DNA from: Turritopsis dohrnii
Lineage: Eukaryota > Cnidaria > Hydrozoa > Anthoathecata > Oceaniidae
Length of the DNA stretch: 64,000 nt
Assembly (NCBI GenBank): GCA_027922465.2
Contig: BQMF02000338.1
Coordinates: 1-64,000 of the forward strand
Direction: 5' to 3'
In this document: positions 23,994 through 30,181 of the stretch, in pieces
Layout: each line of letters starts with the position of its first letter
Numbering within the stretch: the first letter of the stretch is position 1
Notes under the pieces: generated by a model
Seen by the model: the letters and a program-made list of their open reading frames with translations, nothing else
Told to the model about the DNA's origin: nothing
Databases searched by the model: none
Made by a program: the position numbers and the translations under genes

Positions 23994-24806
23994 TAGCCGC
24001 CAAGGCGGCGTCGCTCGCCGCCCATATCCACCTGCTCTGTATCACTGTAAACGTCAAATTTCCTTATAAACGGCTCGTACAACTTGTGCTCAACCAGGAT
24101 TCGAAGTCACAACCAATCTTTTATCAGTGTAACAATACACTCAAAACGTAGAGAGAGAAAACTTCATTTTTTTATTAGCTTTTGTTTTAAAAAAGTTACA
24201 CGCTCTAACATGGGTGCTATCAAACAGGGGGAAAATGGTTTCTCTTCTTAAAAAGTTCACACGGAGGAGAGAAAAAAGGCACGTGCTAAATGAATAAATA
24301 GAATAAAAAAACGTTCGATTAGAACGCTTAACAATTAAAAGAAGAAATTAATTTATCAAAAGAAAAGCAAAAAAAAAAAAAACATTTTGTTTTGATATGA
24401 TACTCTTTTTTTACCTATCGGTTTTTAAACATTCTGATTGCTCAAAAAAAAAGTTCACCCGTCTCAGACAGTCAGGCAAGAGTTAGTGGCAAACCGAACA
24501 TATGCTGCCAGGTTCTGCCACTGCTGCTTTTTGTCCAAAATGTTTAATCAGTTAGTTTCTTTGTATTTAGTTGATGTACTGTTTTCAAAGCCAAGTCAAC
24601 GTGGAATATAAAACCATAGTCACAAGAAAGAGATAGTCTGGATACTCCCGCGCGCGCAAGCCAAAGCCAGCAATAATGTTGTGTTCCCGAATTTTTTAGT
24701 GCCCAGGCTACTTCTAGATGCATGGAAAGTAAGTTCGCGGGAAAGTTTGCACTTTCACAAGCATTTTCTACAGTACTTGTTTACTTTCCTATGCTCACAT
24801 TTCGTT

Positions 24807-27736
24807 ATGCCTGGCGCTAACTGCTCAATATTTGGTTGTCCAACTTCAAGAAATACTCGTGGAGTTTCAATATTTGGTATTCCTCAAGCAAATGATGAAT
24901 ATAATACAACATGGAGGGAAAAGTTGATCAACGTAATCACTAGAGATCGGGTTATTGATAAAAAGTTCAGAGCTCAGATTGATAAACGTTCTCTGCATAT
25001 ATGTGAAAAACATTTTTCCGATCAGCAAATAATTCAACGTAAGTATCTATTGATTTAACACAGTTTTATAATACTGGAACTCTAGAACACTGTTTGTATA
25101 CGATGACAGGACCTAGCTAAACATACATGGATCTTGTCATGTGGTATATCTTAGCAGTTATAAATATCCCTTCCATGTATATCTTAGATGAAAAGAGGAA
25201 AACATTGATTCCTGGATCTATACCATCATTAAATCTACCTCAGAAGAGCATCAATACTACAAGGTTAGAGTATAACCACAAAATAAACAACTTTCGGAGT
25301 AATTTCTAGATGTAGCTACTAACATAGTTACATAATGACTTTACATTTTCTTTTATAGCATTAGCACCAAACCAAGACAATCAGCTTGTAATATCTTATC
25401 AAAAAAAAGTTTGGTGTCACCTGAAACAAACACACATTTATTTTATAAAACATATGATGAATTTGTGAACAGAATCAGAAAGTTAAAGATTCCTGATGGT
25501 TGGCATATAGATATATCTGATGGCTTGGCTAAGATCTTTAGGAATGATGAGATCCATTCAATTCCACAATATGAAATTTTTGTCGATAAAAGTTTATTGT
25601 TTACAATTCGTGCATACACTTGGAGCCTTCCAGATGATCATGATATCTATAAATTGTATAAGCGATCATTCAGAAACATAACATTGTCACAATTAATCTT
25701 GGTGATATCAAGTTATCTTGTTTGCCCTGGAATATCAGATACCTCACTTTTACAGTCAACGTACATAAAAGTGCATGCTGCTCCAAAAAAATTCACCATG
25801 TTTTCTGATGACCAACCACTACAACAAACAGAGTATTACAGATCTCCAGATTGTATACTGTTGCAAAAGTCTGAAGTTTTATGTAAGCAATGTGACAGTC
25901 AAATAAAAAAAGTCTGTAAATCCATGAAACGATCAGCATCTTTAAAGGTTGTCCCAGCTAAACTAAAAGCTCCAATTTCTCTAACATCACCTGATCGACT
26001 AAAAGCAACAATACAAAATTATCGTCTCGAAAATAAAACGTTGAAGGCTGACATAGCAAAACTTCAGGAAGAATTGTCATCATCCTCTGTATCTGTGAAT
26101 CCTGATCTCAGCACCGATTTCATCACCATCATGAGTAACACTGATAAATCCAAAATATCTCCTTTTATGCAGTTTTTTTGGGAAGAGCAACAAAAATATC
26201 TCTCATCCTCAAAATCTGGAGTACGTTACCACCCCATGATAATAAGATATTGTTTATCGTTGGCATCAAAATCACCAGCCGCTTACGATGATATACGTTA
26301 TGACGAGAAATCTGGAACTGGGTTTGTTGTCTTGCCTAGTCGACGTCGTTTAAGAGATTATAAAAATTATATCCATCCGCAACGAGGATTTAACAAAGAC
26401 ATCGTCCTTGAATTAAAAAACAAAGTGAGGGAATTCAGTGACATAGAAAAGTTTGTAGTTCTCCTGTTTGACGAGATGAAAATCCAGCAAAACCTAGTCT
26501 GGGATAAACACTCTGGAGAACTCATAGGCTTTGTAGATCTTGGTGACATCAATCTAAATTATGCTACTCTGGATAAGGTGGATACATTAGCTTCTCATGT
26601 TCTGGTATTTCTCGTTCGAAGTATCGTAAATCCATTTAAGTTCAGCTTAGCCAATTTTGCAACAAATGGTGCCACAGCTAGTCAAATGTTCCCATTATTT
26701 TGGAAGGCTGTCAGCATATGCGAATTACAATGCCAACTGAAAGTAATTGCTGCAACTTGCGATGGAGCATCAGCAAACCGAAAGCTATTTCGTATGCATT
26801 CTCTCCTAACAAAAGCTGATGATTTAAACCCAGATGTTGATGTGACCTACAGAACTCTCAATTTATTTAGTCGTGAAAAACGTTTTATTTACTTCGTATC
26901 TGATCCTCCTCACTTGATCAAGACCTCCCGGAATTGTTTATCAAACTCTGGTGCTGGTAGGGGTACACGCTTTATGTGGAACGACGGTATGTTTATACTT
27001 TGGAATCACATTGCTGACATGGTTGAGGATGATCAAAGAAGTGGTTTAAAACTTCTTCCGAAATTATCAGTCGATCACATGAAATTATCATCATTTTCAA
27101 TCATGAATGTCAAACTAGCAGCCCAAGTTTTAAGCTCCACCGTCAGCACTGCATTAACTGAATATGGACCAGCTGAAGCTGCTGGTACTGCCAAATTTTG
27201 TTACATGATGGATGGTTTTTTCAATATCCTAAACATTCGGAATACACAAGAAGTCCAGAAGAAATTAAAGCCATTTCTTCTTCCTTTCTCGTCAGTCGAT
27301 GATGCACGTTTTGTCTGGTTACGTCAAGTTTTTTTGCAGTATTTTGAAGATTGGCAACAATCCATCGAAGATCGACCAGGTAATTTTTCTAAACAAGCAA
27401 AATCAAATATGTTTATATATATCATGGCAAACATACGAAGGTATTAAGGTTACAGTCAATTCTGTTATCGAGATAGTTCAGTATTTACTGAGCCATAATG
27501 TTCCTTATGTGCTTACTGAACGTTTGTGTCAAGATCCTTTAGAAAATTACTTTGGTCGTCAAAGGTCGATGGGAGCACGCAAAGACAACCCATCAATACG
27601 TGATTTTGGTTACAACGATAACACCATTCGAAACCAGAAGATCTTCAAACCAATTGTGCATGGAAACGTAGCTGACAATGCTGTGGTTGAATTCAGTGAT
27701 GAGCCTGTACCTTGCAGGAAGAGGTTTAAACGATGA
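24807..27736 (+). CDS. THAP9/P-element-type transposase, one frameshift
   Basis: Exons are 24807-25038, 25188-25263 and 25359 onward; phases agree. Exon 1 encodes a THAP zinc finger (C2CH: CSIFGC...HICEKHF). Exon 2 carries the linker TLIPGSIPSLNLP. Exon 3 has a coiled segment (about 26000-26080), then the RNase H-like catalytic domain. It contains LLFDEMKIQ with Asp codon at 26470, ATCDGASANRK, and FVSDPPHLIKT with Asp at about 26902. The C-terminal LTERLCQDPLENYFGRQ carries the likely catalytic Glu. At about 27410-27422 the frame is broken in a run of TA dinucleotides (TTTATATATATC). Downstream, the correct continuation SWQTYEG is in another frame and runs to TAA at 27734-27736. This single 4-nt-type slip is the only lesion I see. 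The enzyme would cut and rejoin the element's own ends. Confidence 0.9.
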
Positions 27737-28305
27737 AGTGACAAAAGAATTCTCCTAAAAAAACGGTTTTTTTTAAAGCCACACATTATTATTAAACATT
27801 ATGGCTAGCTAGCGAAGACTTTACTTGCTAAGAAAGTTCTTGCATCCACGGTATGATATAAATACCTTCAAAAGTTTAGCTAACATAGCTAAAAGTATCG
27901 AATTGTAGATAACACAACCTACAGGCTCGAACTTCCAACTTTCGTTTTAATTTTGTTTTTGTGTCACACGGCAGCAATTTAATGTGGGGATAATAAGACG
28001 GAGATAATAATAAAACGTTACGGCGCTGAACAAATGCCTTGTAATCTCTGTAGTACTCTTGTTATCTCCGTTATTAACAACCCGGGTACTTTGAGAATGT
28101 TAGGAATGTTGAATTTTGCGTAGAGAGGAGAGAGTGTTTGTTCTTTATGAATCTCTCTCCTAATTCTATAGTATCAATAGCAAATATAGTGGGAAATGAA
28201 AATAATAACAAATTATTTTTTAAAAAACAACACAATAATTATGCTCAAAGTTAATGTTTTTTTTAATGTGTAGCTATAAAAATAGCTGTTTTTATAAGTG
28301 TAGGT

Positions 28306-29560
28306 TTAACGACCTTGGTCCAAACTGGAAGTTTTCTGCTTTAACTGAGTACGTAGTGATCTTGATTTGCTTGTGTCAGATTTAAATAACTGTTGTTTAT
28401 CTTTGACAAATGAAAATGTTCTGACTCGTACATAAAGCATGAGGAGGTCTTCTAACAAGTTCAGTGCAACTTCTTTCTTTATTGACTCTGTGCAAAGGTA
28501 TAATATTCTTGAAAAATTAGCTTTTACTTCACAGTTCTTCAGGAGACATGAAACTATCTCCTTACTATCAATTTTATTGCAGCTTTTGTTGACACTTGAA
28601 CGAAATAGTGACTCGGCAGATGTATATAAAGATGAGTATAACTTCATTTGAAACCTTCCACAATCCACCACGATTCAAAGCATTCACCAATTTGTGTTGT
28701 GATAGATCTTTATGGTCATCTTCAGACAGTTTGCCAGCTAGTAGTATGCATGAATATTGACGATGATACAATTTTTTGGATGTTTTAGAGAATCGTATTC
28801 GGCGATACATCGTGCTAAAAACGTAGCCCCCAAGATAACATATGACTGATTTCTCTTTCTCCGAGAATTCGTTTAACTTTGAAGGAAATTCTACAACATC
28901 ATCCTTAAAAGTAGATCCTGATAGGTGACATAACACAGAAGTTGCTACTTCTAATCCTAAAAGTAAGCTGGAATCTCGGCCTAAACTGGCACCAAAGGGC
29001 TGTTCAGCATCAGCTATATCTTTCAAAAACAAAGGATAAAACTTCTCTGCATTCCCATCAAAAGATTTTATCGTTTCCTTAATAAGATGGTATGAATGTA
29101 ACACATCATTAAGGCTACCAACTTTATAAGACTTGAATTCATTTATGATCTCCTCAGGATACAACTCATCACCAGCTAACTTAATTACACATTTTTCAAG
29201 GTGTTTTTTATAATAAAGTGGGTGCATCATCTGTTCTGCGTCTTTGGTATCAGTATTGTTAACGACACTCTCTTCTCTATCTCTGTGTTTTGCATTGGTA
29301 TGGCGTGATAACCCTCTTTTCGTCAGGCAAACCTTTTTGCAAAAACCACAATTAAACGAATCTTTTGTATCTTCGGGAGGTATCTCTTCAATAGCAGCAG
29401 TTAGGTACACTTCAAAATCAATATTATTTTCTAAAACATCATCATCTATCGCCGCTAAAATAGCATCAAGGTCGTCTCCATATAGAAAATCCTCTTGCGT
29501 TGCAGCCATTTTGACGAACTTGATGCCCCTAGATTCCGGCCACCCCTCTGTTTTGAACAT
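28306..29560 (-). CDS. C2H2-containing accessory protein of the P-like transposon, one frameshift
   Basis: The minus-strand frame from 29560 (or the better-placed ATG at 29507-29509, giving MAATQEDFLYGDD) has an acidic N-terminus. A C2H2 zinc finger follows (FNCGFCKKVCLTKRGLSRH..AKH). Then comes a region of about 200 residues with SSLLLGLEVATSVLCHLSGS, EKEKSVICYLGGYVFSTMYRRIRFS and NRGGLWKV. The frame then shifts near 28617-28632, again at a TATATA run. The other frame continues TSAESLFRSSV to a stop at 28306-28308. The gene converges on the transposase gene and lies fully within the same inverted ends. I do not know a function. Similar GGLWKV-type proteins seem to recur in invertebrate genomes (recollection, not a search). 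Confidence 0.75.
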
Positions 29561-29884
29561 CGATTTGGTACAACCCGAAAATGACCGAGTACCCAGACTA
29601 TCTCTTTCTTGTGACTATGATAAAACTAACAATAATGATAAAAACAAAACGTTATTCCTATTAGTTCACCAGCCAAAAAATGTCACGTTCGTATGGAATG
29701 CCATAGCTGCCATAAGTGATCTTCTGATGTTCTGCGCAGTAGAAATTTCGTTATGCGCAGTAGTGATTTCATTTGGCGCTGTAATAAAAACATATTGCGA
29801 TGTAGTTTTTCAGTATTGCAAGGTGGATCTATTTGAAAGCGCAGTAATTTCCTTGACTTGCGCAGTAGACAAGTCATATTGTGC

Positions 29885-30181
29885 ACTACTTAAATCGTTA
29901 CGTGGTGGTAGATAAATCGTTAGGTGTGGTAGTTAAATCGTTACGTAGTAGATAAATCATTACGTGGTAGATAAATCGTTACGTAGTAGATAAATGGTTA
30001 CGTAGTAGATAAATCATTACGTGGTAGATAAATTGTTACGTGGTAGATAAATGGTTACGTAGTAGATAAATCGTTACGTGGTAGATAAATCGTTAGGTGG
30101 TAGATAAATTGTTACGTGGTAGATAAATTGTTACGTAGTAGATAAACCGTTATGTGGTAGATAAATCGTTATGTGGTAGAT
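29885..30181. repeat. GTTACGTGGTAGATAAATC minisatellite, left arm
   Basis: About 15-16 tandem copies of a 17-19-bp unit with GTAGT/GTGGT variants. It continues for one unit at 32287-32306 after the nested element. Confidence 0.9.

Follow-up and report, generated by a model that had tools for sequence, protein, structure and literature searches.

A 64,000-nucleotide stretch of the Turritopsis dohrnii genome (GCA_027922465.2, contig BQMF02000338.1, positions 1 to 64,000), referred to here as the window, contains a transposon of the P superfamily with two genes. A THAP-type transposase is encoded on the plus strand, and a protein with a C2H2 zinc finger, called the accessory, is encoded on the minus strand (Table 1). 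Both genes, in convergent orientation, are enclosed by one pair of inverted ends in many copies, and deeply diverged subfamilies show this arrangement too. A first-pass annotation had described matching 27-bp ends and a 7-bp duplication enclosing both genes, and this description holds: the first 27 bases of the ends match at 27 of 27 positions, the full repeat at 32 of 33 (97% complementary), and ATAAAAC stands on both sides. At up to three mismatches the terminal 27-mer is found at two places only in the window, against a mean of 0 in 100 shuffles, which rules out a chance inverted repeat. The presence of a THAP transposase and a C2H2 protein on opposite strands of one element is likewise borne out, by domain matches and by homologs of the accessory. 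By its domains, ends and duplication, the element is a member of the P superfamily.

Table 1. Features of the P-superfamily element in the window
Feature	Position	Strand	Remarks
Target-site duplication ATAAAAC, left	24608..24614	.	sequence read
P-superfamily element, 5,005 bp	24615..29619		THAP transposase (+), C2H2-finger gene (-)
Terminal inverted repeat, left, 33 nt	24615..24647	+	first 27 perfect; repeat search, mismatch scan
Transposase exon 1, THAP domain	24807..25038	+	inferred borders (GT/AG signals, homologs)
Transposase exon 2	25188..25263	+	borders inferred
Transposase exon 3: RNase H with GTP-binding insertion, RNase H end	25359..27736	+	one frame break near 27.41 kb
Accessory gene	28306..29509	-	start 29509; one frame break near 28.62 kb; end SLRTQLKQKTSSLDQGR fits the SLRT..DQGH terminus conserved among homologs
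Region equivalent to P0001 residues 220-391, predicted C-terminal domain fold of the Drosophila P transposase	28381..28873	-	placed via alignment
Accessory helical domain without clear structural relative	28874..29221	-	placed via alignment from P0001 residues 103-219
C2H2 zinc finger of accessory, C-x2-C-x12-H-x4-H	29285..29350	-	
Terminal inverted repeat, right	29587..29619	-	77 nt upstream of accessory start codon
Target-site duplication ATAAAAC, right	29620..29626	.	sequence read

The transposase matches the THAP family (PF05485, E 1.1e-6, above the cut-off), the N-terminal part of the TNP-like RNase H domain (1.8e-31) and its GTP-binding insertion (2.8e-16). THAP is placed at the N-terminus, and the predicted model of the homolog P0097 matches THAP structures. 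After the ENYFG motif, which holds the catalytic glutamate, 64 residues are left to the end of the protein, and the corresponding tail of P0097 has a predicted local distance difference test score (pLDDT) below 50. The transposase is thus predicted to cover THAP, RNase H and the GTP-binding domain, followed by a low-confidence tail. No match to the accessory profile was found among 120 transposase homologs. Together with the short end and the low-pLDDT tail, this suggests that a fused C-terminal domain (CTD) is absent from the element's own transposase. A search with an artificial fusion for joined transposase-CTD proteins of suitable length gave 20 candidates and none at E<=1, within the limits of exact-word sensitivity. 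A third intron at 27380-27440 was considered and withdrawn; relatives and a sister copy have coding sequence there, and the interruption is a frameshift. At another locus (L034, C225:244100-250200) the transposase is one intronless open frame of 925 codons beside a 409-codon accessory frame, and at least seven more matches have a 925-codon transposase frame, at 55% identity to that of the window.

With 65 homologs at E<=0.001, the most similar of them no more than 58% identical, the accessory is a protein family rather than a chance reading frame. The named relatives of the element's proteins belong to Hydra vulgaris and Dendronephthya gigantea. An acidic N-terminus (mean net charge -12) is followed by a single C2H2 finger and then by a long helical stretch, and the last part is net positive in all 38 homologs long enough to be scored. 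When the window protein and 26 homologs are aligned, conservation spans the protein, opening with MA..EDFL.GDDLDA and closing with SLRT..LDQGH. The four zinc ligands are kept in 37/37, 37/37, 39/39 and 38/39 ungapped rows of an alignment of 45, and the helical domain between the finger and the C-terminal part (P0001 residues 103-219) is also well conserved. Searches of NCBIfam gave no meaningful match, no relatives were found in viral and prokaryotic contigs, and no Kelch family appeared among Pfam matches at E<=1 for the accessory and nine homologs, nor in the best 25 of 59 families. Six homologs (P0002, P0007, P0029, P0040, P0041 and P0050) lie on contigs of about 1.0-1.4 kb that barely exceed the gene, as expected for transcripts, which hints at a separate accessory mRNA.

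The copy in the window has its ends, its duplication and both genes, as first described, but it is not intact: each gene carries one frame-changing small insertion or deletion, near 27.41 kb and 28.62 kb. Neither place breaks the frame in homologs. A sister copy located on a different contig, which differs from that of the window by 10 substitutions and three insertions or deletions across 5 kb, also reads through both (its first two exons lay outside this check), so copies without the two breaks exist. The two indels (about 27414 and 28623) have the same length, and each falls within a TA-rich run; they may stem from slippage, from footprints left by the excision of another element or from an assembly error. 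About 270 bp beyond the right end of the element, a tandem array begins (29891-30181; 19-bp unit TAAATCGTTACGTGGTAGA, about 15 copies, 87% matches).

The association of the two genes was surveyed in the window's own genome (436 Mb), where counts are lower bounds, as 101 of 650 and 105 of 562 accessory candidates and 66 of 750 transposase candidates were scored. There are 32 exact matches to the 27-mer end, against 0 for the reversed control; they include 11 inverted pairs with a spacing of 4.1-5.0 kb, and the remaining 10 are single. Sequence of both genes is present in all 11 copies with two exact ends, with the transposase as fragments only in C164 and the assignment by coordinates only in C158. 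Among 10 complete copies, the duplication is exactly 7 bp in eight, has one mismatch in one and is absent in one; an 8-bp duplication was found in none. Two copies that are identical over 4,666 bp sit at separate sites, each with a duplication of its own, pointing to recent movement.

Pairing by coordinates, defined as an accessory match within 8 kb on the 3' side of the transposase, was scored for 66 transposase matches, three of an original 69 having been dropped as second pieces of listed copies. In 44 of the 66 an accessory is present, always convergent, with a median gap of 896 nt, where about 0.06 pairs would be expected by chance. A set of 21 loci, composed of the window and 20 others chosen by similarity to the element's left 601 bp (two of 23 distinct places, C134:646000 and C113:969662, were not fetched), contains both genes at 15 loci, all convergent, the transposase only at four, the accessory only at one and neither at one. 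Six loci of different subfamilies, chosen through the accessory, all have a convergent transposase match (a fragment only in L032), and two of them (L029 and L031) are bounded by inverted ends that match perfectly over 33-37 nt. Among the 22 unpaired matches is a set of intact transposases, at 46-48% identity, for which no accessory was listed. In both deep-lineage cases that were fetched, however, a convergent accessory lies just past the transposase stop (hidden Markov model E 5e-49 and 2e-52); at about 25% identity, it had been too distant to be listed. Two further unpaired matches (C443 and C375) have accessory sequence, and three more (C155, C324 and C421) have a convergent accessory 10-14 kb away, past the 8-kb limit and uncounted. 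The expectation that the genes stay paired in other copies was thus supported in the copies with two ends, in the matches paired by coordinates and in both deep-lineage cases. At C791:75365-83326, two gene pairs stand as mirror images with accessory starts about 300 bp apart, perhaps through adjacent insertions or an inverted duplication.

The link between the genes appears to extend to other genomes. In two accessory homologs at 44-45% identity (P0012 and P0026), an upstream extension holds HSHK[KR]EIVW, which is the translated inverted end of the window element. Among the contigs listed, 64 with accessory and 115 with transposase homologs share four exact sizes (400 shifted controls: mean 0.27, maximum 3), an indirect link through equal size. 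Distances between accessories and between transposases are correlated over 18 pairs, four of them joined via equal-size contigs (Mantel r 0.595, 0/5000 permutations; near-identical copies L009 and L020 removed beforehand). Purifying selection, proposed in the first-pass annotation as a check on the accessory gene, is indicated by ratios of nonsynonymous to synonymous divergence (dN/dS) of 0.17-0.43 in seven of nine within-subfamily pairs, those with dS above 0.05; because sequences recur among them, the pairs are not independent. The other two pairs have too few changes, with a dN/dS of about 1 for L018/L020; for comparisons across subfamilies, dS is either saturated or could not be computed. 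Of the near-full-length accessory matches, 46/62 have no stop.

The first-pass annotation had offered three roles for the minus-strand gene: regulator, targeting factor or mobility helper. An accessory system is supported by the survey, and predicted structures would narrow its role to that of a transposase CTD encoded in trans. When the C-terminal region of the accessory was compared with 993 chains, the top rank went to the P transposase CTD, which had been named beforehand, with 115 of its 118 residues covered (TNP residues 617-734). This part of the accessory is complementary, in predicted structures, to the part of TNP matched by the transposase homolog. From models of homologs, the accessory as a whole is predicted to combine its C2H2 finger with a helical domain and a CTD fold, the end of which is a long basic helix. 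By sequence, the CTD region had no match in the PDB at E<=10, and Foldseek returned nothing at E<=0.001 against the PDB and viral models; helical folds are prone to chance structural matches. Of the 65 accessory homologs, 35 come with the precomputed label PF22824. The label, which is absent from the Pfam families listed for the accessory homologs, may denote a THAP9-type C-terminal family and was not counted as evidence. It partly prompted the naming of the CTD beforehand, and the count of residues in the transposase tail was made afterwards.

The best explanation, with a probability of about 0.6, is a two-gene P-superfamily transposon in which the opposite-strand zinc-finger protein supplies the transposase CTD in trans. 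The accessory would dock from outside where the CTD of the Drosophila transposase packs into the transpososome, its basic last part would sit near the target DNA, and its finger could add a further contact with the ends or the target. The requirement for a second subunit would then gate assembly and transposition. At roughly even odds, the element represents a split-transposase P lineage, in which a separate CTD protein with its own C2H2 finger makes a two-protein transpososome obligatory and the finger is able to steer end pairing or target choice.

Several observations weigh against the first-pass proposal and would be compatible with a host gene that the element captured, or with a passenger that plays no part in transposition. 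At four of the 21 loci, the fetched stretch contains transposase matches only, although at one of them (L022) a stop-ridden accessory lies just beyond it. The unpaired match at C182:587874 (L013) has no accessory in the 6 kb fetched, and 17 of the 66 transposase matches were unexamined for an accessory beyond coordinates. Such an origin is nevertheless highly improbable, as at least 101 accessory matches were scored in the genome (a few being two pieces of one copy), the genes are paired and convergent in divergent subfamilies, and homologs elsewhere have the same end upstream. A host gene captured by this copy alone, which would have undone the first-pass proposal, is ruled out by the survey of copies and by the homologs in other genomes.

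Two further explanations, both unlikely and about equally so, accept a role in transposition and assign it differently. The accessory may be a DNA-binding helper or targeting factor, with a role like that of the Myb-like protein of Harbinger and a CTD likeness reflecting a common helical arrangement. The conserved C2H2 finger suits this possibility, as do the lack of detected sequence homology to the CTD and the ease with which helical folds match by chance. It accounts less readily for the top rank of a domain named in advance, with nearly its whole length covered, and for the fold of the accessory complementing the part of TNP that the transposase homolog matches. Alternatively, the accessory may be a regulator, either a repressor or a titrating decoy, that uses its CTD-like fold and finger to bind either the transposase or the element's ends and so keeps transposition in check, in the manner of KP and other shortened P products of Drosophila. 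A protein resembling the CTD could compete for its site, the N-terminus is strongly acidic on average, and Drosophila P elements produce shortened repressor proteins (PMC7776569). The element's own transposase, however, seems to have no CTD to compete with, and a dispensable repressor would be expected to be lost often, yet the pair is kept down to about 25% accessory identity.

P elements have been described as one-transposase machines. Two-gene cut-and-paste elements such as maize MuDR (mudrA/mudrB) and Harbinger (a transposase and a Myb-like protein) belong to other superfamilies and have other accessory proteins; RAG1L and RAG2L, the latter a Kelch-type accessory, are not known to be related to the proteins of the window element. 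Among the papers listed in literature searches, which did not extend to Repbase reports or most subscription papers, none deals with P elements that carry a second gene. If a CTD is indeed supplied in trans, this natural split would show the CTD to be a separable assembly module, transposition could be switched by the supply of one subunit, and the finger beside a helix reaching the target DNA would be a place where target choice might be set.

The Drosophila melanogaster P element (TNP, cryo-electron microscopy structures 6p5a/6pe2) shares with the window element the THAP domain, the RNase H domain with its GTP-binding insertion and, by prediction, the CTD fold within the element; its 31-bp ends (PMC7776569) are similar in length to those found here. 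In Drosophila, the CTD is fused to the transposase, whereas here it is predicted on a separate opposite-strand gene, and the C2H2 finger further sets the window element apart. THAP9 and zebrafish Pdre2 are likewise P-type transposases with THAP, RNase H and GTP-binding domains, but each is a single transposase that includes the CTD, with 13-bp ends and an 8-bp duplication (PMC10983969). P-element duplications are described as 8 bp long (PMC10983969, PMC7776569). The window element is therefore not a canonical Drosophila/THAP9-type P element, given its 7-bp duplication and, on predictions, a transposase without a fused CTD. Galileo is a P-superfamily element with 7-bp duplications, as here, but its ends are long and internally repetitive, and the available text of PMC2775673 mentions no second gene. 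The RAG-like transposon (RAG1L/RAG2L) also joins a transposase and a convergent partner in one element (PMC7204232); here no Kelch match was seen, and the accessory resembles a transposase domain instead. The window element would thus, if the proposed split is correct, add another transposase with a convergent partner besides the RAG1/RAG2-like elements, in an animal genome and with cnidarians as its nearest named relatives.
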